A stretch of DNA of 64,000 nt from Sulfurovaceae bacterium (GTDB lineage Bacteria; Campylobacterota; Campylobacteria; Campylobacterales; Sulfurovaceae), in assembly GCA_028715055.1 (NCBI GenBank), contig JAQTLE010000004.1:1-64000 (forward strand), in the 5' to 3' direction. Below, piece by piece: positions 13,847 to 21,300 of this stretch. Position numbers and translations under genes: made by a program. Numbering within the stretch: position 1 is the stretch's first letter; each line of letters opens with the position of its first letter. The notes under the pieces are model-generated. The model was not told where the DNA came from, searched no databases, and saw only the letters and a program-made list of their open reading frames with translations.

Positions 13847-13894
13847 TTAGTGAAAAAGCAGGGCTAGAGGCTTGCGTTTAAATTTATTATTTGT

Positions 13895-13920
13895 GGATTC
13901 TGGATCAAGTTCGGAATGAC
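13895..13920 (+). repeat. REP-like palindrome (TGGATTC...GAATGAC family)
   Basis: GGATTCTGGATCAAGTTCGGAATGAC is one of about a dozen copies of a roughly 26-base imperfect palindrome with conserved outer bases (GGAT and ATGAC) and variable but complementary stems. Other copies lie at 14307-14331, 14342-14368, 15884-15908, 15919-15944, 16082-16107, 16120-16147, 16167-16191, 16571-16596 (reverse), 16757-16782, 17500-17525 and 17569-17595. All lie between genes, except 16571 which encodes the end of the VanZ-like protein. Confidence 0.85.
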
Positions 13921-14017
13921 GGATTGTCGTCACTGCGAGACTTTGTAAAAGTCGCTGCAGTTTACTATTTATGGATCGCCACATTTCGTTTGCGATGACG
14001 AAAAAAGATCTATTAAA

Positions 14018-14218
14018 TCAGCACCCCTGACTCTCCATGCCAAGCTGTAGTTCCTCGATAGCGCGGCGGTGTTCTGCGATCTCATTTTTGATATCTTCGC
14101 TGTCACTTTCCTGGGCATCCGGTGTACCTACATATACTTCCAGCTCTTTGCGTAGTCTACTAATCGCTTCTTGGTGTTCTTTGATCTCTTTACGTAATTG
14201 TTCACAGATATCTGGCAT
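14018..14218 (-). CDS. 66-aa coiled-coil protein of unknown function (paralogue A)
   Basis: The reading frame has a good ribosome-binding site (AGGAG, 7 bases before ATG). The 66 residues are nearly all helical and charged, with heptad-like spacing: CEQLRKEIKEHQEAISRLRKEL, a central acidic linker (GTPDAQESDSED), then IKNEIAEHRRAIEELQ. It ends in Cys, with another Cys at position 5. I do not recognise the family. The paralogue at 15595 differs at 3 residues although about 20 bases differ, so most changes are silent. That argues for a real, selected protein. It lies at the low-coordinate end of duplicated segment A. Confidence 0.65.
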   Translation of the reverse strand: MPDICEQLRKEIKEHQEAISRLRKELEVYVGTPDAQESDSEDIKNEIAEHRRAIEELQLGMESQGC

Positions 14219-14244
14219 GTTTAACTCCTGTAAGTAGATAGTTT

Positions 14245-14250
14245 ATTATA
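14245..14250 (-). promoter_or_regulatory. Predicted -10 box for the 66-aa gene (copy A)
   Basis: On the minus strand CATATAATAAACTATC gives a TATAAT box about 26 bases upstream of the ATG. It lies in the stretch that is identical in copy B (15819-15824 region). A convincing -35 is not obvious, which is usual for Campylobacterota sigma70 promoters. Confidence 0.45.
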
Positions 14251-14385
14251 TGATGTTATTTTTGAAGAGTTTCTGAATGGAGATTTCAATCAAAGCTATT
14301 ATTTGTGGATCCCCGCCTTCGCGAGGATGACGGATATTGATGGATTCCGTGTCGTAGCACGGAATGACGTTATATATATAAAATA

Positions 14386-14500
14386 ATGTCATTTGAACGT
14401 TCCTTGAAAGCCACGCTTGTGGCAGTAGTGCAAAAGCGAGCGTGTGCGATTCGCGAAAATGACGCTTTTTGCGCTACTTTTATAAAAAAGTAGTAAAAGA
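14386..14500 (-). repeat. Composite structured repeat, copy 1
   Basis: Read on the minus strand it comprises a hairpin (CTACTTTT at 14474-14481 with AAAAGTAG at 14486-14493), then an outer stem pairing GTCATTT and AAATGAC (14388-14394 with 14457-14463), and an inner stem CACGCT/AGCGTG (14412-14417 with 14439-14444). Stem sequences differ from other copies but stay complementary. REP-like sequence follows on the far side. Confidence 0.75.
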
Positions 14501-14555
14501 AAACTCACAAGATACTGAAATAAATTTAGTGTGACAGTTTAGTTTATGTATTTTT

Positions 14556-14678
14556 ATACCTTTCTTTTTACAAAGAAAGGTAACCAAAGAAAATCGTCAC
14601 CACTCACGAACCGTAACGCAATATTTCTGCGACATATGCTCAAAATATTTTTACTCTCCCTGCGTTCGGGCGACAGTA
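14556..14678 (+). repeat. Composite structured repeat, copy 2
   Basis: The leading hairpin is CCTTTCTTT/AAAGAAAGG (14559-14567 with 14572-14580), and the inner stem is AATATTT/AAATATT (14620-14626 with 14643-14649). The core CACTCACGAACCGTAACGC and TGCGACATATGCTC match copy 5. The right part (TTTACTCTCCCTGCGTTCGGGCGAC) is diverged, so the outer stem is imperfect (GTCAC against GCGAC). It ends about 50 bases before the antitoxin gene. The 62-aa frame at 14546 in the ORF track is just this repeat read through. Confidence 0.72.
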
Positions 14679-14697
14679 TATATTTTTTATGGATTTA

Positions 14698-14706
14698 TGG
14701 TAAAAT
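14698..14706 (+). promoter_or_regulatory. Extended -10 promoter of the MntA/HepT pair
   Basis: TGGTAAAAT fits an extended -10 (TGnTAtaAT) element 24 bases before the ATG at 14731. The start codon is preceded by AAAGGAG at 6 bases. No -35 hexamer is evident. Confidence 0.5.
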
Positions 14707-14730
14707 TTGTTTAGTTTTAAAGGAGAAGCT

Positions 14731-15027
14731 ATGAGATTAGAACCATATGAGATAAAAGCCATACAAGATAGCTTCATAAACAATTTTCATAGTGGAAAAA
14801 TCTATCTTTTTGGCAGTCGTGTAGATGATAGCAAAAAAGGTGGAGATATAGATCTTTATATTGAACCCATAGAAACCCAAAAGCTTGCGAATAAAAAAAT
14901 TGATTTTTTGGTTGACCTCAAATCAAAAATAGGTGATCAAAAGATAGATGTAGTCATCAATAGAGGTAAAAATGAGTTGATCGATCTGATAGCCAAACAG
15001 CAAGGAGTATTATTGTGGAAGAGCTAA
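14731..15027 (+). CDS. MntA-like minimal nucleotidyltransferase (antitoxin of type VII TA pair)
   Basis: The start is ATG 14731 behind AAAGGAG; the track's TTG at 14707 is upstream of that site. The 98-residue protein has the nucleotidyltransferase fold signature IYLFGSRVDDSKKGGDIDLYI, i.e. GSx(10)DxD with the two catalytic aspartates, and a third acidic residue in KIDVVI. MNT proteins of this size pair with HEPN partners. The characterised MntA antitoxin AMPylates a tyrosine of the HepT RNase and so silences it. It overlaps the HepT gene by 13 bases. The pair sits between the two copies of a duplicated segment. Confidence 0.85.
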   Translation: MRLEPYEIKAIQDSFINNFHSGKIYLFGSRVDDSKKGGDIDLYIEPIETQKLANKKIDFLVDLKSKIGDQKIDVVINRGKNELIDLIAKQQGVLLWKS

Positions 15028-15458
15028 AAGAGATTTTTAGAATAATAGATACTATGATGATAGGCTGTGATATTGATTATAAAGAATTAAAAACTAAGTT
15101 GATCGATGCGAAATTTTTTGACGATCATCAAAATGTGAGAATAGTAAATAGTTTTTTGTTTAATTACTCTAAAATACAAGATAAGATCGGCGCTAAGCTG
15201 CTCAAAAAAGTGTTGTATGTGCAAAAAGAGATCGATAATGAAAATATAAGCATGAAAGATGCTTTGAATCTTTTGGAAAAATTAGAAATAATCAAAGATA
15301 GCCATGCTTGGGACAGATTGAGGGAAATCCGAAATAATCTATCGCATGAATATCCGTACTGTATAGAAGAAAGGATAGAAAATATCAGTTTGGCAATGGA
15401 AGGGTACAAGATACTAACTGAGATATACTCAAATCTGAAAAAGTATTGCGAAATATAG
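15015..15458 (+). CDS. HepT-like HEPN-domain RNase (toxin of type VII TA pair)
   Basis: A GTG start (15015) follows AAGGAG by 7 bases and lies inside the nucleotidyltransferase gene. The 147-residue helical protein carries RNNLSHEYP around residue 113, the RX4HXY motif of HepT toxins, where R and H form the RNase active site and Y is the target of AMPylation by the partner. Family knowledge therefore predicts a ribonuclease kept inactive by MntA. Some HEPN/MNT pairs of the HI0073/HI0074 type are less well characterised, so activity is inference. It is followed by the GCAGGGTCAGAGGTTTA repeat. Confidence 0.83.
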   Translation: MEELKEIFRIIDTMMIGCDIDYKELKTKLIDAKFFDDHQNVRIVNSFLFNYSKIQDKIGAKLLKKVLYVQKEIDNENISMKDALNLLEKLEIIKDSHAWDRLREIRNNLSHEYPYCIEERIENISLAMEGYKILTEIYSNLKKYCEI

Positions 15459-15594
15459 GAAAAGCAGGGTCAGAGGTTTAGTCGTTGGTTTTTAGCGGCT
15501 CCGTCACTGCGAGACCTAAGGTGGTCGTGGCAGTCCACTCTCTATGTATCGCCACACTTCGTTCGCGATGACGAAAAAAGACATAAAGATTAAA

Positions 15595-15795
15595 CTAGCA
15601 CCCCTGGCTCTCCATGCCCATCTGCAGTTCTTCAATAGCTCTGCGGTGTTCTGCGATCTCATTTTTGATATCTTCGCTGTCACTTTCCTGTGCATCGGGT
15701 GTACCGACATAAACCTCTAACTCTTTGCGTAGTCTGCTGATCTCTTCTTGGTGCTTTTTGATCTCTTTACGTAATTGTTCACAGATATCTGGCAT
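15595..15795 (-). CDS. 66-aa coiled-coil protein of unknown function (paralogue B)
   Basis: This is a near-identical relative of the protein at 14018 (3 differences: E14K, A18E, L59M). It has the same ribosome-binding site (AGGAG, 7 bases before ATG), the same helical halves around GTPDAQESDSED, and conserved cysteines at positions 5 and 66. Conservation of protein over DNA between copies supports a functional product. No known family is recognised. It could be a small cytoplasmic coiled-coil adaptor or a protein linked to the repeat element itself; neither is demonstrated. Confidence 0.65.
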   Translation of the reverse strand: MPDICEQLRKEIKKHQEEISRLRKELEVYVGTPDAQESDSEDIKNEIAEHRRAIEELQMGMESQGC

Positions 15796-15961
15796 ATTTC
15801 ACTCCTGAATGTAGATAGTTTATTATATGATGTTATTTTTGAAGAGTTTCTGAATGGAGATTTCAATCAAAGCTATTATTTGTGGATCCTCGCCTTCGCG
15901 AGGATGACAGATATTGATGGATTCCGGATCAAGTCCGGTATGACGTTATATATATAAAATA

Positions 15962-16075
15962 ATGTCATTTGAACGTTCCTTGAAAGCCACGCTTGTGGCA
16001 GTAGTGCAAAAGCGAGCGTGTGCGATTCGCGAAAATGACGATTTTGGAGCTACCTTTTTAAAAAGGTAGTAAAAA
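15962..16075 (-). repeat. Composite structured repeat, copy 3
   Basis: The outer stem is GTCATTT/AAATGAC (15964-15970 with 16033-16039). The inner part is the same as copy 1. The hairpin is a perfect palindrome CTACCTTTTTAAAAAGGTAG (16050-16069), which differs from CTACTTTTATAAAAAAGTAG in copy 1 by paired changes. Confidence 0.75.
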
Positions 16076-16081
16076 GAATAT

Positions 16082-16191
16082 GGATTCCGGATCAAGTCCG
16101 GAATGACGGATCCGAATATGGATCCCAGGGTCAAGCCCGAGGATGACGGAGTGGTTATCTTTTTGTGGATCGCCACCTTCGCGAGGATGAC
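16082..16191 (+). repeat. Cluster of three REP-like palindromes
   Basis: Three tandem copies: GGATTCCGGATCAAGTCCGGAATGAC (16082), GGATCCCAGGGTCAAGCCCGAGGATGAC (16120) and GGATCGCCACCTTCGCGAGGATGAC (16167). Loops and stems vary while the flanking GGAT and ATGAC are kept. They fill the space upstream of the VanZ-like gene. Confidence 0.85.
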
Positions 16192-16219
16192 GGATATTGA
16201 TGGATGACAAGTGTACATA

Positions 16220-16228
16220 TGCTACAAT
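16220..16228 (+). promoter_or_regulatory. Extended -10 promoter of the VanZ-like gene
   Basis: TGCTACAAT fits a TGnTAnaAT extended -10 element 20 bases before the GTG start at 16249. It directly follows the REP cluster. Confidence 0.45.
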
Positions 16229-16248
16229 AAATAAAAAAAGAGCGAATC

Positions 16249-16599
16249 GTGAGATACATCTATATAATATCTTTTTTTGTGACAATATTTGTCATAGAAT
16301 TTTTAGCTACAGCCACTAGAGGTGTAGAGTCTATAACTCTAGGATGGGATAAATTAAACCATTTTTTTGCATTTATGGTGTTGTATATATTGCTCTCGCT
16401 GGCTTTTCGAGATCTAAAAACGGTTTATAAAGTTTTGTTGCTTTTTGCTTTTGGATTGCAGATAGAGATAGTGCAGTCGTTTTTGCCATCTAGAGAATTT
16501 TCATATCTGGATATATCAGCCGATATAGTGGGCATTATGTTTGGACTTTTGATATACCATACATTGGTTCGTCATTCCGTGCTGCGACACGGAATCTAA
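16249..16599 (+). CDS. VanZ-like family membrane protein with repeat-encoded C-terminus
   Basis: The 116-residue protein begins at GTG. It has a membrane segment at the N-terminus (YIISFFVTIFVIEFLATA), then GWDKLNHFFAFMVLYILLSLAF, LLLFAFGLQIEIVQSFLPSREFSYLDISADIVG and a last helix. KLNHFxAF and EIxQxFxPxRxxSxxDxxAD are the typical VanZ-family features. Its function is unknown outside glycopeptide resistance; many bacteria carry such small versions. The last residues VRHSVLRHGI are encoded by a REP-like palindrome (16571-16596) that also provides the stop codon region, so the original C-terminus was replaced or extended. Confidence 0.8.
   Translation: MRYIYIISFFVTIFVIEFLATATRGVESITLGWDKLNHFFAFMVLYILLSLAFRDLKTVYKVLLLFAFGLQIEIVQSFLPSREFSYLDISADIVGIMFGLLIYHTLVRHSVLRHGI
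16571..16596 (-). repeat. REP-like palindrome inside the VanZ-like coding end
   Basis: GTCATTCCGTGCTGCGACACGGAATC is the reverse orientation of the dispersed palindrome family, nearly the reverse complement of the copy at 14342-14368. It forms the last codons of the VanZ-like gene. Confidence 0.8.
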
Positions 16600-16611
16600 A
16601 AAAAGTTATTT

Positions 16612-16750
16612 ATTTGATACTTTTTTCTCACAGAGAATGCAAGCACAAGAGAAAAGTATCACAAAAGCGTCACACTCACAAACCGCGACGCATAATCTCT
16701 GCGAAGCCTACCTAGATTATGCTGCTTTTCGAGTGTTCGTATGACAATAT
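16612..16750 (+). repeat. Composite structured repeat, copy 4
   Basis: The hairpin arms GATACTTTTTTCTC (16616-16629) and GAGAAAAGTATC (16649-16660) flank a longer loop than in other copies. The outer stem is GTCACAC with GTATGAC (16669-16675, 16739-16745; one mismatch), and the inner stem is ATAATCT/AGATTAT (16692-16698 with 16714-16720). Together with the REP at 16757 and the pseudogene at 16826 it fills the gap between the VanZ-like gene and the lipoprotein. Confidence 0.75.
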
Positions 16751-16825
16751 ATTTGTGGATTCCGGATCAAGTCCCCAATGACAAGTTTCGGGAATTGCTT
16801 CGTTTTTCACAATGACGTTGAAGGA

Positions 16826-16932
16826 CTAGAAGAAGTAATACTGCTCACGCCTTATTCATTTTCTTCGAGATTCAAGCGTCCTTTTCCTTCTATCATAAAT
16901 TGAAAAGAGTCATTTATAGGCATTTCGATAAT
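16826..16932 (-). pseudogene. Decayed C-terminal fragment of an outer-membrane beta-barrel gene
   Basis: Read on the minus strand, MPINDSFQFMIEGKGRLNLEENE followed by a stop matches MPMYDSFQFIMEGKARWNLEKDE of the intact protein at 17609-18118. The sequence then continues with a shifted frame to a YYFF-stop end like the NYFF end of the intact gene. Nothing homologous remains upstream. The fragment is therefore the remnant of a second gene copy, presumably truncated when repeats accumulated around it. It is too short for the ORF track. Confidence 0.78.
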
Positions 16933-17022
16933 GAAAAAAATTGATTTTTCGATTAAAAATATTACACAAAAACTACACACATAAATATCATAATATGCGA
17001 TATATCAATTAAAGGAGATATT

Positions 17023-17412
17023 ATGAGTCAAATACAAATAAAACATTTAGGCGCCATAGGTATTATTTCAGGTATATTATTGTTAACAGGATGTGTGGAC
17101 AATCAAGTGCCATATTATTATTCAGATGCAGGTGTTAATGATGTTATAGGCGTATATGATACTCCTATATATATTGATAGACCTTATTATCATCATAGAA
17201 ACAAATACTATTATGGCGGACAACATCATCATGATGGGAGCTATGATTATAAAGGCACTACATTGCAAGGCGGAGAATATCACGATGGACAAAATGGTGG
17301 AAGCAACAATTATCAAGGTAATACATTGCAAAGCGGACAATATAATGGTGGAAGCAATAATTATCAAGGCAATACATTGCAAGATGGACAACATAGCATA
17401 AGAAACCATTAA
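17023..17412 (+). CDS. Small His/Tyr/Gly/Asn-rich lipoprotein with tandem 17-residue repeats
   Basis: The 129-residue protein starts at ATG 6 bases after AAAGGAG. A signal peptide ends in the lipobox LLLTGC (Cys around 24), so it should be lipidated and anchored in a membrane. The mature part has PYYHHRNKYYYGGQHHHDG, then a 17-residue unit NGGSNNYQGNTLQxGQx repeated twice after a diverged first unit (YDYKGTTLQGGEYHDGQ). Histidine clusters could bind metal, but that is speculation. No family is recognised. It is flanked by repeats and by outer-membrane protein sequence on both sides. Confidence 0.75.
   Translation: MSQIQIKHLGAIGIISGILLLTGCVDNQVPYYYSDAGVNDVIGVYDTPIYIDRPYYHHRNKYYYGGQHHHDGSYDYKGTTLQGGEYHDGQNGGSNNYQGNTLQSGQYNGGSNNYQGNTLQDGQHSIRNH
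17293..17394 (+). repeat. Two tandem 51-base coding repeats
   Basis: Units 17293-17343 and 17344-17394 (AATGGTGGAAGCAAYAATTATCAAGG...) differ at only a few bases and are exact multiples of three. A diverged earlier unit precedes them. Such arrays can change copy number by slippage. Confidence 0.8.
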
Positions 17413-17499
17413 ATCTTTATACTTATTTAATCTCGTTCCCATGCAGGAGTGAATCAACTCTTGCAATTGAACTTAATTAGGTATTTATTTATTATTTAT

Positions 17500-17595
17500 G
17501 GATTCCGGATCAAGTCCGGAATGACTAGTTTCGTGAATTGCTTTGCCACTTCATGGCTCGCAATGATTGGATTCCTGTTTTTTCACAGGAATGAC
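17500..17595 (+). repeat. Two REP-like palindromes and a second short repeat
   Basis: GGATTCCGGATCAAGTCCGGAATGAC (17500-17525) and GGATTCCTGTTTTTTCACAGGAATGAC (17569-17595) flank CGTGAATTGCTTTGCCACTTCATGGCTCGCAATGA, a second palindromic repeat type related to 16787-16816. They lie between the lipoprotein and the convergent outer-membrane protein gene. Confidence 0.8.
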
Positions 17596-17608
17596 ATAGA
17601 CTAAAGGA

Positions 17609-18118
17609 CTAGAAGAAGTAGTTTACCCCAACTGTACCAAGCATGCCTTGCTCATCTTTTTCAAGATTCCAGCGTGCTTTTCCTTCCATTATAAATTGGA
17701 AAGAGTCATACATTGGTATTTTGAGTCCAGCACCTAATAACATATTCCAATCATCGCGATTTGAAACATCGCTTATAGTACGATATCCAAGCCCTAGATC
17801 AGCAAATGGGATAACAGAATTGATGGGACTAAAATCATAACCAACACTGCCGATATAATCAACAACATTAACTTTTTGAGAGCCATAATCCGGATTTGTA
17901 TATAATACTTCGCCTATGGCAGACCATTTATCCGTAAAATGGTAACCTACTCGCAACCCGGCACCTGGAAAATAATTGTCAAGAGCATCACCGCTTCCAC
18001 CTTCAAAAATTGCTACACCTGACAAACCGACTTCCCATGGCTTTGCAATGGCATCCGCTTGTCCATAAACAGCACCACTCATTACTAACAAGGTGACTAA
18101 TGATATTTTTTTTAACAT
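17609..18118 (-). CDS. Outer-membrane beta-barrel (OmpA-like/porin-fold) protein
   Basis: The start is the second methionine of the track frame (18118), behind AAGGAG. The 169-residue product has a signal peptide (MLKKISLVTLLVMSGAVYGQ) and then an eight-strand-like barrel pattern: WEVGLSGVAIFEG, LRVGYHFTDKWSAIGEVLY, YIGSVGYDFSP, FADLGLGYR, LLGAGLKIP, and the terminal VGVNYFF with the C-terminal phenylalanine that the BAM machinery recognises. It fits the outer membrane beta-barrel domain family. The role is unknown. A decayed relative lies 0.7 kb away at 16826. Confidence 0.8.
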   Translation of the reverse strand: MLKKISLVTLLVMSGAVYGQADAIAKPWEVGLSGVAIFEGGSGDALDNYFPGAGLRVGYHFTDKWSAIGEVLYTNPDYGSQKVNVVDYIGSVGYDFSPINSVIPFADLGLGYRTISDVSNRDDWNMLLGAGLKIPMYDSFQFIMEGKARWNLEKDEQGMLGTVGVNYFF

Positions 18119-18223
18119 AATATTCTCCTTCAATTTCAATGATTCTTTTTAATATTAAAACACATTAAATATTTAACCAAACTTAAAATGATTGCTTAAA
18201 ATATAAATTTTTTTAAAATAAAT

Positions 18224-18649
18224 TTATAATCTTCGGTGTTCTATTTTTGTGCATTTGCTTTGTACGACTTTTATGCCACTTTCTTGTGCTTTTGCGGCAG
18301 CTTCATTGTTCACAAGTCCTAGCTGAGTCCATACACAATACACATCACCTCTTGCTATGGCTTCATCTATCACTGAGGCTATCACTTCTGGTTTGCGAAA
18401 AATATCAACCATATCTATCTTGCATGGAATTTCGCTCAAGCTCCTATATACTTTTTCGCCTAGTATGGTCTCTTCTTTTGGATATACCGGTATTATAGTA
18501 AAGCCCGCGTTTTTGAGATATCGTGCAACCATATTACTGGCTTTCCTCTCATCGGGCGAGCATCCTATGATCGCGATTGTTTTAGTCTTGTCAAAAATAT
18601 CTTTCATTTGTGCTTGGTCAGTATTGACAGTAGGAAATTCGCATTCCAT
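18224..18649 (-). CDS. CoA-binding domain protein (YccU-type)
   Basis: The start chosen is the internal ATG at 18649, preceded by AAGGAAG; the longer frame to 18718 would be translated from an inserted repeat. The 141-residue protein is a single Rossmann-fold CoA-binding domain: IAIIGCSPDERKASNMVARYLKNAG, then IIPVYPKEETILGEKVYRSL, and VWTQLGLVNNEAA near the end. Members of this small family bind CoA and have no firmly known role. It is divergent from ilvA across the inverted-repeat element. Confidence 0.85.
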   Translation of the reverse strand: MECEFPTVNTDQAQMKDIFDKTKTIAIIGCSPDERKASNMVARYLKNAGFTIIPVYPKEETILGEKVYRSLSEIPCKIDMVDIFRKPEVIASVIDEAIARGDVYCVWTQLGLVNNEAAAKAQESGIKVVQSKCTKIEHRRL

Positions 18650-18680
18650 TATTTTACTTCCTTGTTTGTAGGTTGGTCTG

Positions 18681-18951
18681 TTACCCCAATTAGGCACATA
18701 CCTAAATTTTGAGAGCATCAGGGATAGTAAGATTTGGATAAAAAAAGTTAAAGGACTACCCCAAAGGTAATTCGAGACTTTTTTTGTTCAAAGATTGCTT
18801 GTCTTTCATGCTCCCAATAGGGTACAATGCTTTTGCACATACTCATCGTTAAAACTTCTCAACGTAGCTTTGGGCTATGCTTTCAAAGTTTCGCCTTGAT
18901 TATGCACAAAATCATTTGTATCAAAACTTAGGTATGTATCTAATGGGGTAA
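18681..18951. mobile_element. MITE/BIME-like ~270-bp element with inverted-repeat ends
   Basis: The left end TTACCCCAATTAGGCACATACCTAAATTTTGA (18681 onward) is matched in inverted orientation by the right end TCAAAACTTAGGTATGTATCTAATGGGGTAA (18921-18951), with a few mismatches and one indel. Each end also holds its own small palindrome (TTAGG...CCTAA). The interior has no reading frame. This fits a nonautonomous miniature element or a pair of inverted REP units. The target duplication is unclear. Its right end touches the ilvA promoter, and its left end forms the spurious 5' extension of the CoA-binding gene. Confidence 0.6.
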
Positions 18952-18953
18952 TA

Positions 18954-18962
18954 TGTTATAAT
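18954..18962 (+). promoter_or_regulatory. Extended -10 promoter of ilvA
   Basis: TGTTATAAT is a perfect extended -10 element 30 bases before the ilvA ATG. Any -35 contact would fall inside the right inverted repeat of the element at 18681-18951. Confidence 0.6.
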
Positions 18963-18992
18963 TGTATCCAATTATGGCAACAGGAAAATTAA

Positions 18993-20204
18993 ATGTTAAA
19001 TCTTGATACTATCAAAAAAGCAGCAAAAAGGATAGAAAAAGTTGCACATCATACACCTTTTTCTTATGCTCCTGTTTTGAGCAATTTAAGCGGTTATGAC
19101 GTATATCTCAAAAATGAAAATCTTCAACGCACAGGGTCATTCAAACTTCGTGGAGCTTTCAATAAAATTGCAGCACTCGCAGAAGAGGGTAACACAAAAG
19201 GTGTGGTAGCAGCAAGTGCAGGAAATCATGCACAAGGAGTAGCGCTTGGCGCGGCACATTTTGGGCTTCTGGCCGCCATCGTTATGCCAGAATCAACACC
19301 GCTCAATAAGATACAAGGCGTAAAAGATTTTGGCGCAGAAGTCATATTGCATGGCTCTAATTATGATGAAGCTTATGCCTATGCCATAGATTACGCCAAA
19401 AACAACGATGCGAGTTTTGTGCATCCGTTTGCCGATGATGATGTTATGGCAGGACAAGGCACAATAGCATTGGAAATGCTCCAAGATATAAGCGATCTGG
19501 ATGTGATCATCGTTCCGGTTGGCGGCGGCGGACTTATAAGCGGAGTCGCTACAGCAGCCAAAGCCATAAATCCGAAGATCAAAGTAATAGGAGTAGCTGC
19601 CAAAGGCGCTCCGGCAATGAAACAATCATTTGATGCCAAAAAACCTATAGATTCACTGCATGTCAAAACTATTGCAGATGGAATTGCCGTGAGAGATACT
19701 TCGCCCGTGACATTGGAATATATATTAAATAATGTAGATGATATAGTTTTGGTGCGCGAAGATGAGATAGCCAATGCGATTTTATTTTTGCTCGAAAAAC
19801 AAAAAATACTTGTAGAAGGCGCTGGCGCTGTTGGAGTAGCTGCACTCATACATCATAAGTTGAAATTGCCTAAAAATAGCAAAATAGGCATAGTAGTCAG
19901 CGGCGGCAACATAGATGTAACTATGCTCTCTCTCATAATCGAAAAAGGGCTTATGAAATCAGCGAGAAAAATGAAGCTAATGGTAACGCTTGTAGATAAG
20001 CCCGGAGCATTGATGAGATTTACCGAGATACTAAGAAGTGTCGGAGCCAATATAGTACAGATCGGTTATGACAGGACTTCTATTGATCTTGAATTTGGCG
20101 ATGCGCATGTATCTGTATCGTTAGAAACCAAAGGCGAAGCACATCAGGAAGAAATAAGAACCAAACTAAAACAAAACGGTTTTGTATTTAGCGAAGCGCA
20201 CTAA
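18993..20204 (+). CDS. ilvA: Threonine ammonia-lyase (threonine dehydratase), with C-terminal ACT domain
   Basis: The 403-residue protein is a fold-type II PLP enzyme: KNENLQRTGSFKLRGAFNK contains the PLP lysine, VAASAGNHAQGVALGA the substrate loop, and VPVGGGGLISGVATA the phosphate-binding glycine loop. From about residue 330, LMVTLVDKPGALMRFTEIL starts an ACT domain. It converts threonine to 2-oxobutanoate, the first step to isoleucine. The length and single ACT domain fit the roughly 400-residue class. The next gene starts directly after its stop. Confidence 0.93.
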   Translation: MLNLDTIKKAAKRIEKVAHHTPFSYAPVLSNLSGYDVYLKNENLQRTGSFKLRGAFNKIAALAEEGNTKGVVAASAGNHAQGVALGAAHFGLLAAIVMPESTPLNKIQGVKDFGAEVILHGSNYDEAYAYAIDYAKNNDASFVHPFADDDVMAGQGTIALEMLQDISDLDVIIVPVGGGGLISGVATAAKAINPKIKVIGVAAKGAPAMKQSFDAKKPIDSLHVKTIADGIAVRDTSPVTLEYILNNVDDIVLVREDEIANAILFLLEKQKILVEGAGAVGVAALIHHKLKLPKNSKIGIVVSGGNIDVTMLSLIIEKGLMKSARKMKLMVTLVDKPGALMRFTEILRSVGANIVQIGYDRTSIDLEFGDAHVSVSLETKGEAHQEEIRTKLKQNGFVFSEAH

Positions 20205-21110
20205 ATGATAGCTATTGATCTGGGTTCAAATACCTTGCGTGTATTGCAGATGGATTGTAGCAGCGGGGAATTTTTGTATGAGTATCAAAAAATTGTAAGA
20301 ACTGCTGATAATCTCATTCACACCGGAGTGATCTCACTAGAGGCAAAAGACAGGATAATATGTGCTATCAATGAAGCGGCGTCGCATATCGATTTTACAA
20401 AAGATAAGATCAAAGCCGTTACCACGCAAGCCATGAGGGCAGCAAAAAACAGTTCCGAGATATTGGAAGAAATTTATAAAGAAACCGGAGTAAGATTTGA
20501 GATAATTGACGGATATACTGAAGCCAGACTTACTATATCGGCAGTTTTAAAACGTCTAGATATATTAGGCATCATGCCTAAAAATGGGTTTGCAATGATC
20601 GATATAGGCGGCGCATCTACCGAGATCGCTTTTGTATATGATGATGACATCGTAGCTCAAAGTTTTCCGATCGGCATAGTGACTTTGTCTCAAACTTATC
20701 CTAGCCTAGATAGATTAGAAAATATTTTGCCCGGTAAGATCAAAATAATAAACGACTATATACAAAACATTATAAGTCAAAAAGGTAAAGTTGATATGGT
20801 TGTAGCCACAGCAGGTACCCCAACCACAGTAGCTGCTATGAAAATAGGTTTGGATTTTGATACTTATGAGGCTTCCAAGATAAACGGCATGAAGCTTGAT
20901 CTTTCTGATATGGATGAGCAACTTGAGAGATTACTCCATATGAGTGAAAATATGCGCCAGATTGCAGTAGGTACCGATAGGAGCGATCTTATAGCCACTG
21001 GGATAGTGTTGTTTAAATCACTATTAAAATTGCTTGGTAAAAACGAATGTGTCGTCGTCGATGACGGACTCAGAGAGGGCGTAGCTCTAGAAGGATGCAA
21101 AGCTATATGA
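20205..21110 (+). CDS. Ppx/GppA phosphatase family protein (short form)
   Basis: The 301-residue protein has the ASKHA-fold signatures of the exopolyphosphatase/guanosine pentaphosphatase family: MIAIDLGSNTLRVLQMD at the start, TQAMRAAKNSSEIL, FEIIDGYTEA, and AMIDIGGASTEIAF in the phosphate-binding domain. It lacks the C-terminal HD-like domain of longer members such as the 499-residue paralogue at 42316. It probably hydrolyses polyphosphate or (p)ppGpp, though the exact substrate is not predictable. Its ATG directly follows the ilvA stop, so the two are likely cotranscribed. Confidence 0.87.
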   Translation: MIAIDLGSNTLRVLQMDCSSGEFLYEYQKIVRTADNLIHTGVISLEAKDRIICAINEAASHIDFTKDKIKAVTTQAMRAAKNSSEILEEIYKETGVRFEIIDGYTEARLTISAVLKRLDILGIMPKNGFAMIDIGGASTEIAFVYDDDIVAQSFPIGIVTLSQTYPSLDRLENILPGKIKIINDYIQNIISQKGKVDMVVATAGTPTTVAAMKIGLDFDTYEASKINGMKLDLSDMDEQLERLLHMSENMRQIAVGTDRSDLIATGIVLFKSLLKLLGKNECVVVDDGLREGVALEGCKAI

Positions 21111-21112
21111 TG

Positions 21113-21300
21113 TCATACTGGATTTATTTCAGTATCTCTAATTTGTTTTTTCTTTACTACCTTTTTAGAAAAGGTAGCCCCAAAATCGTCACACTCACAA
21201 ACCGCAACGCTAGATTTTTGCGGCATATGCTCAAAATCTAGCTGCTTTTCGAATGCTCGTGTGACATTATTTTATATATGTAACGTCATTCCTGCATAGG
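21113..21300 (+). repeat. Composite structured repeat, copy 5 (most complete)
   Basis: The order is: a REP-like hairpin (GTCATACTG...CAGTATC), the hairpin CTACCTTTT/AAAAGGTAG (21157-21165 with 21169-21177), an outer stem GTCACAC/GTGTGAC (21188-21194 with 21259-21265) enclosing an inner stem TAGATTTT/AAAATCTA (21211-21218 with 21233-21240), then ATTATTTTATATATGTAACGTCATTCC. Copies 1 and 3 share the same outer parts in reverse orientation. It occupies most of the gap between ppx and ilvB; a further palindrome CCCACGGAGACCGTGGG lies near 21333. Confidence 0.78.

Follow-up and report, generated by a model that had tools for sequence, protein, structure and literature searches.

In the first 64,000 nucleotides of contig 4 (JAQTLE010000004.1) of a Sulfurovaceae bacterium (assembly GCA_028715055.1), hereafter the window, five copies of a short hairpin-rich repeat lie between positions 14386 and 21300. 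We conclude that these copies are, on balance, probably members of a family of non-coding mosaic repeats of the kind known as bacterial interspersed mosaic elements (BIMEs) or repetitive extragenic palindromes (REPs), made of exchangeable modules that were seeded long ago and have since been rewritten in place. Head and body hairpins are the modules of the mosaic, and in some cases a CGTC-type REP adjoins the head as a further module. The elements are intergenic, clustered and present in many copies, and many occupy the same sites in relatives. Heads and bodies have been replaced without loss of stem complementarity, and one inner hairpin underwent inversion at its site.

Modules and architecture of the repeat family

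Genome-wide counts rest on searches and fetched loci (L numbers) of the 1.76-Mb Campylobacterales genome that contains the window (99.97% complete). BLAST with copy 5 gave 32 matches in this genome, and the family comprises about 31 intergenic copies. The covariance model recommended by the initial annotation, built on 18 copies, gave 25 matches (E ≤ 0.01), and the pairing signal of those 18 copies exceeded that of shuffles. The copies were clustered, with 17 pairs of neighbors less than 6 kb apart versus 3.2 ± 1.6 expected. Flanking genes, called simply as the longest open reading frames, were in the same direction in 33 cases, convergent in 12 and divergent in 3, and the elements had no strand preference. 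With the body model and stricter filters (E ≤ 1e-4), copies were found in 8 of 397 sampled Campylobacterota genomes, all of them in family f1, with no match outside that family. Within the genus, the number of copies per genome ranged from 0 to 25 (covariance model).

In each element, a short A-rich tail with GC or TC at its end connects an AT-rich head hairpin to a body of ~79 nt (74-83 nt in this genome). The body begins with an outer arm (GTCA..), followed by an unpaired CTC.CGAA.CG, an inner stem (~10 bp) that varies in sequence, an unpaired region with either CTTTTCGAG or CTTTCAAGG, and the second outer arm (..TGAC), usually with ATTATTT directly after it. Head stems vary on both arms (CTACC/GGTAG, GATAC/GTATC, GTTAC/GTAAC, TGC/GCA) and, judged by eye, are complementary in nearly every copy despite the varied sequence. 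CTAC-type heads were mostly preceded by a CGTC-type palindrome; GATAC-type and TACTTTTCTTT-type heads were not (this genome, counted by eye).

The modules occur in different combinations. Three copies (L004, L006 and L008) have different heads on nearly identical bodies, the body of L009 has a class A center between class B ends, and in L190 a CGTC-type REP takes the place of the body behind the head. With three head types, several body classes, adjoining CGTC-type REPs and heads swapped on the same body, the family has the organization of a BIME-type mosaic. A third, longer body class was found behind the same head in L016, L019 and L030, with the outer stem GTCATAATCG/CGATTATGAC in L019.

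Element positions are old and their sequences have been replaced

Nine sites of this genome were also occupied in sister species, with flanks roughly 65-87% identical. At about six orthologous sites that we compared base by base, the element had the same 3' junction (e.g. L018/L072, L014/L059 and L012/L057), and at one shared site (L005/L061) it was in the opposite orientation. In 12 of 13 orthologous pairs, which are not all independent (L005, L011 and L073 recur), identity of the body to an in-genome paralog (82-97%) exceeded that to its ortholog (60-82%, or 89% in L005/L063). Only L023/L062 departed from this pattern: the bodies of the orthologs were 94% identical, and both arms of the head had changed together. 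Despite the sequence replacement, the stems still pair at the orthologous sites. Because the sites are shared and the bodies resemble paralogs, we conclude that the location of the elements is old and that the sequence has been replaced.

Two pairs indicated how the replacement proceeds. One is L023/L062, with its joint change of both head arms. In the other, the 34-nt inner hairpins of L005 and L063 are exact reverse complements of one another. DNA-polymerase template switching in inverted repeats is known to homogenize the arms and to invert the spacer (PMC8604942), and template switching in hairpins can, on its own, create and maintain complementary stem arms (PMC8794818). The exact inversion is a signature of template switching, and the covariation described below is therefore real but by itself no proof of selection. 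The initial annotation had taken compensatory change to mean that structure, not sequence, is retained. Structure did outlast sequence change, also at orthologous sites, but the L005/L063 inversion indicates that this need not mean selection.

Base pairing is maintained in the body stems

As the initial annotation had observed, the stems differ between copies and yet remain complementary, and we found covariation above that of shuffles in both body stems; the corresponding assessment of the head stem was made by eye. The covariation score of 18 class A copies, whose alignment used sequence only, was 0.219, compared to 0.108 in shuffles, none of 500 of which scored as high, and 0.025-0.094 when the partners were slid. 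We also used an alignment-free test, in which the k-th base from each end of the body was paired, on 42 distinct bodies from eleven genomes. Positions 5, 6 and 7 of the outer stem paired in 93, 90 and 60% of the bodies versus 67, 56 and 42% in shuffles (jointly 0.821 versus 0.612 ± 0.022). In both tests, the controls leave the relatedness between copies in place. At position 2 of the outer stem, one copy had switched on both arms (GACTA/TAGTC).

Copies in the window

The five copies that the initial annotation had reported were all present where it had placed them, with the stem sequences that it had quoted, and we found no further full copies in the window. We refined the limits of the copies (head hairpin and body): of the 21113-21300 assigned to copy 5, 21157-21265 was retained, and the ends (21113-21140 and 21267-21300) are separate CGTC-type palindromes and flank. 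The copies and their modules are as follows.

14388-14493, minus strand: copy 1 (head hairpin and body)
14388-14463, minus strand: copy 1 body, class B; outer stem GTCATTT/AAATGAC, inner stem CACGC/GCGTG
14474-14493, minus strand: copy 1 head hairpin CTACTTTT-TTAT-AAAAGTAG, in the minus-strand reading
14510-14536, minus strand: CGTC-type palindrome upstream of copy 1
14557-14674, plus strand: copy 2 (head hairpin and body)
14557-14582, plus strand: copy 2 head hairpin TACCTTTCTTT-TTAC-AAAGAAAGGTA
14583-14595, plus strand: copy 2 A-rich tail ACCAAAGAAAATC
14596-14674, plus strand: copy 2 body, class A, partly decayed; inner stem AATATTT/AAATATT
15964-16069, minus strand: copy 3 (head hairpin and body)
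15964-16039, minus strand: copy 3 body, class B, duplicate of copy 1
16050-16069, minus strand: copy 3 head hairpin CTACCTTTT-TA-AAAAGGTAG
16615-16745, plus strand: copy 4 (head hairpin and body)
16615-16661, plus strand: copy 4 head hairpin TGATACTTTT...AAAAGTATCA, with a long loop
16669-16745, plus strand: copy 4 body, class A; inner stem GCATAATCT/AGATTATGC
21111-21137, plus strand: CGTC-type palindrome TGTCATACTGGATTTATTTCAGTATCT, directly upstream of the CTAC-type head of copy 5
21157-21265, plus strand: copy 5 (head hairpin and body)
21157-21177, plus strand: copy 5 head hairpin CTACCTTTTTAGAAAAGGTAG
21178-21187, plus strand: copy 5 tail CCCCAAAATC
21188-21265, plus strand: copy 5 body, class A; outer stem GTCACAC/GTGTGAC, inner stem GCTAGATTTT/AAAATCTAGC

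Copies 1 and 3 are 95% identical across 139 nt and adjoin a 300-nt duplication at 91% identity. They come from one local duplication and thus count as a single data point, leaving four independent copies in the window. The duplicated blocks are 14012-14311 and 15589-15888 (with 14360-14498 and 15936-16074) and hold a short minus-strand gene (~66 aa, MPDICEQLRKEIKEHQEAI...) beside copies 1 and 3; both versions look intact by eye. Between copies 2 and 3, at 14707-15458, are genes for a nucleotidyltransferase (Polbeta) and a HEPN-like substrate-binding partner (under the Pfam cut-off), which are probably a toxin-antitoxin pair of the MntA-HepT type. The neighbors of copy 5, ppx and ilvB, are ordinary chromosomal genes. 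CGTC-type palindromes (TGGATTCCGGATCAAGTCCGGAATGACG), a kind that has been described (PMC3733652), are plentiful in the window (13888-13920, 15912-15944, 16075-16107, 16750-16782, 17493-17525 and more).

Possible origins and maintenance of the elements

We believe that seeding, exchange and template switching could together account for the family. An enzyme acting in trans, and not identifiable in this genome, would have seeded the copies early. After seeding, the copies would have been mostly stationary and rewritten by exchange between copies, and template switching inside an extruded hairpin would make its arms complementary again. The hairpin or the unpaired motifs may also be under selection, and a predicted influence of the elements on transcript 3' ends is plausible.

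Several observations weigh against this history. The mobilizing enzyme is missing, so the seeding step is one that we infer. Neither a clean empty site nor an insertion event was seen directly; the ppx-ilvB site lacked copy 5 in the relatives compared, but their divergence is too high for it to qualify as an empty site. What looks like replacement at a fixed site could also be the result of repeated insertion at a hot spot. Lastly, the conserved unpaired motifs of the body (CTC.CGAA.CG and CTTTTCGAG/CTTTCAAGG) suggest something beyond neutral upkeep.

Those motifs are also among the findings that would be expected if the repeats were co-transcribed with neighboring genes and functioned as structured RNAs (3'-end stabilizers, terminators or protein-binding sites), with the covariation reflecting selection on the RNA. 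We consider this a less probable explanation, though one with a real chance of being correct. It is consistent with the covariation in both body stems, the retention of copies at orthologous sites and the small number of copies between divergent genes. A similar head in other phyla (see below) has pseudoknot covariation and an A-rich linker, which are typical of RNA. In addition, the minus strand had the more stable fold in 39 of the 42 bodies, and a U-rich tract follows the minus-strand hairpin. However, this stability is largely due to composition: mean z-scores against dinucleotide shuffles were -3.06 for the minus strand and -2.58 for the other. Wobble pairs in the body stems were of the G-U type in 12 cases and of the A-C type (G-U on the opposite strand) in 23, and so do not favor as RNA the plus strand, the one drawn in the initial annotation. 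The lack of a strand preference relative to genes and the tolerance of an exact inversion of the inner hairpin also argue against a functional RNA, as does the lack of a match in Rfam. An Rfam search, which had been called for, identified a tRNA elsewhere in the window and nothing in the repeat region up to an E value of 0.5, in agreement with the earlier statement that no described family could be named.

Movement of the elements in trans by a REP-associated tyrosine transposase (RAYT, or TnpA-Y1) that recognizes the hairpins as single-stranded DNA, a partner that the initial annotation had proposed, appears improbable. The elements do have hairpins of REP-like size, a high copy number and an intergenic, clustered distribution, and Y1 genes were present in 74 of 100 sampled genomes of the family. 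However, this nearly complete genome, the richest in copies, has no Y1_Tnp gene, and members of the genus with 1-3 Y1 genes have just 0-4 copies. The suggested comparison of transposase flanks likewise yielded no support: the fetched Y1 loci of head-rich genomes, which are from other phyla, had no heads, and those inspected were flanked by unrelated inverted repeats. Nor did we find an unpaired GTAG (or GTGG) tag 5' of the hairpin. GTAG was present only within palindromic CTAC...GTAG head stems, with GTAT or GTAA elsewhere. RAYT-like Y1 genes of Bacteroidota, Nitrospirota and Desulfobacterota had clade-specific flanking inverted repeats (L229, L231, L238, L239, L240, L241 and L245).

It is quite unlikely that the elements are miniature inverted-repeat transposable elements (MITEs) derived by deletion from a DDE transposon with terminal inverted repeats; they are short, non-coding and multi-copy, but their ends (TTTCTTT...TAC and TGACATTATTT) do not form an inverted repeat, and aligned copies had no evident target-site duplication beside them, as judged without an empty site. 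From the core boxes and the neighboring genes, it is very unlikely that the elements are integron attC-like sites, which recombine as single-stranded DNA folded into hairpins that have extrahelical bases and vary in their terminal structure: the clustering and the architecture (outer stem, asymmetric bulges, variable inner stem) are reminiscent of attC, but the RYYYAAC / GTTRRRY boxes are absent (consensus CACGAAC / GTTCGGG) and copy 5 has the ordinary neighbors described above.

Among known systems, the BIMEs and REPs of E. coli and Pseudomonas, with their RAYTs (PMC2817692, PMC3116915, PMC6006769), are similar in being mosaics of short, intergenic palindromic modules that are multi-copy, clustered and seldom between divergent genes. 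In contrast to those, our elements have no GTAG tag and no Y1 transposase in the genome, and have bodies of ~79 nt with two-tier stems whose sequence was replaced at fixed orthologous sites. CGTC-tagged REPs are in the same genome and adjoin CTAC-type heads; the body also starts with CGTC and usually ends with GACA (the TGTC tag reversed), and neither has a known dedicated transposase. In CGTC REPs, the CGTC/TGTC tag is unpaired and is combined with an 8-9 bp stem, a 4-5 nt loop and a CCA tail (PMC3733652), whereas in the ~79-nt body the GTC is paired with GAC, and the body is thus not a CGTC REP. MITEs such as NEMIS, RUP and ERIC (listed in PMC3733652) are likewise non-coding, are 70-300 bp long and can fold as RNA hairpins, but differ in the terminal inverted repeats and target duplications that we did not find here.

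A similar head module in other phyla

We searched for the head with a pattern that fixes 29 bases and comprises a stem, a loop of 3-20, the opposite stem and an A-rich tail, such that base identity among the matches is by construction and the loop is free except for its length. The pattern was found in at least 120 stretches from Bacteroidota, Selenomonadales, Clostridia, Desulfobacterota, Nitrospirota, Lysobacter and Campylobacterota. In 20 genomes picked for having the head, it recurred in 1-33 copies, and the reversed pattern was absent.

The 3' end of the loop was complementary to the bases after the tail (105 distinct heads; 9.73 versus 7.48 ± 0.22, 0 of 2000 permutations). One Selenomonadaceae genome (G481) combines GTGTCC/GGACAC, GTGCCC/GGGCAC, CGTCC/GGACG and CGCCC/GGGCG (0 of 5000 permutations). 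Results for two other genomes (347 of 5000 for G416 and 265 of 5000 for G412) were consistent with loop covariation within genomes but weak alone.

H-type pseudoknots with an A-rich third loop are a known type of fold. Judging from its sequence, the head in other phyla would have the same order: stem 1, a short loop 1, a covarying stem 2 and an A-rich linker. Unlike those pseudoknots, the head is an interspersed repeat, and the Campylobacterota copies have no visible second stem: their loops are mostly 2-5 nt (TTAT, TAG, TTAGT), and no partner was seen by eye after the tail. The resemblance makes it likely that the heads in other phyla and those in the window have a common ancestry. More tentatively, the head (stem TACTTTTCTTT/AAAGAAAAGTA, with the loop pairing past the A-rich linker) might be a single undescribed cross-phylum pseudoknot module with clade-specific bodies and a conserved host recognition factor, the Campylobacterota branch having lost the second stem.

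An outer stem after the head was clear in some Bacteroidota (e.g. L095, L109 and L187); across the other phyla as a whole, an outer stem right after the head was not significant (p = 0.06). Behind the head in Selenomonadaceae RUI390 (L290-L302) come two alternative outer/inner hairpins and then a last hairpin whose loop is of the TCC type, an arrangement that is a further mosaic with exchangeable parts. We found no shared gene near the heads of other phyla, only unrelated housekeeping genes. BLAST with copy 5 gave no match in phage or plasmid collections, and the head pattern was in just 9 IMG/VR stretches. The cross-phylum head elements had no credible match in Rfam. A RAGATH-18 RNA (Rfam RF03064) on a Selenomonadaceae contig (L088, 2046-2107, minus strand) is unrelated to the head. 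In the open-licence PMC literature, we found no earlier description of the head motif, of Campylobacterota REPs or of interspersed pseudoknots.

Implications

The elements are best filed under REP/BIME-type mosaic elements. They are unusual in combining a fixed position with a rewritten sequence, in the hairpin inversion that was caught, and in having a head like that of a cross-phylum module. Compensatory change in repeats is usually taken as proof of a selected structure, and this family is a natural test of how much covariation can be achieved without selection, by template switching and exchange between copies. The similar head across phyla, which shows pseudoknot covariation even inside individual genomes, suggests that a class of folded interspersed elements has so far gone undescribed.

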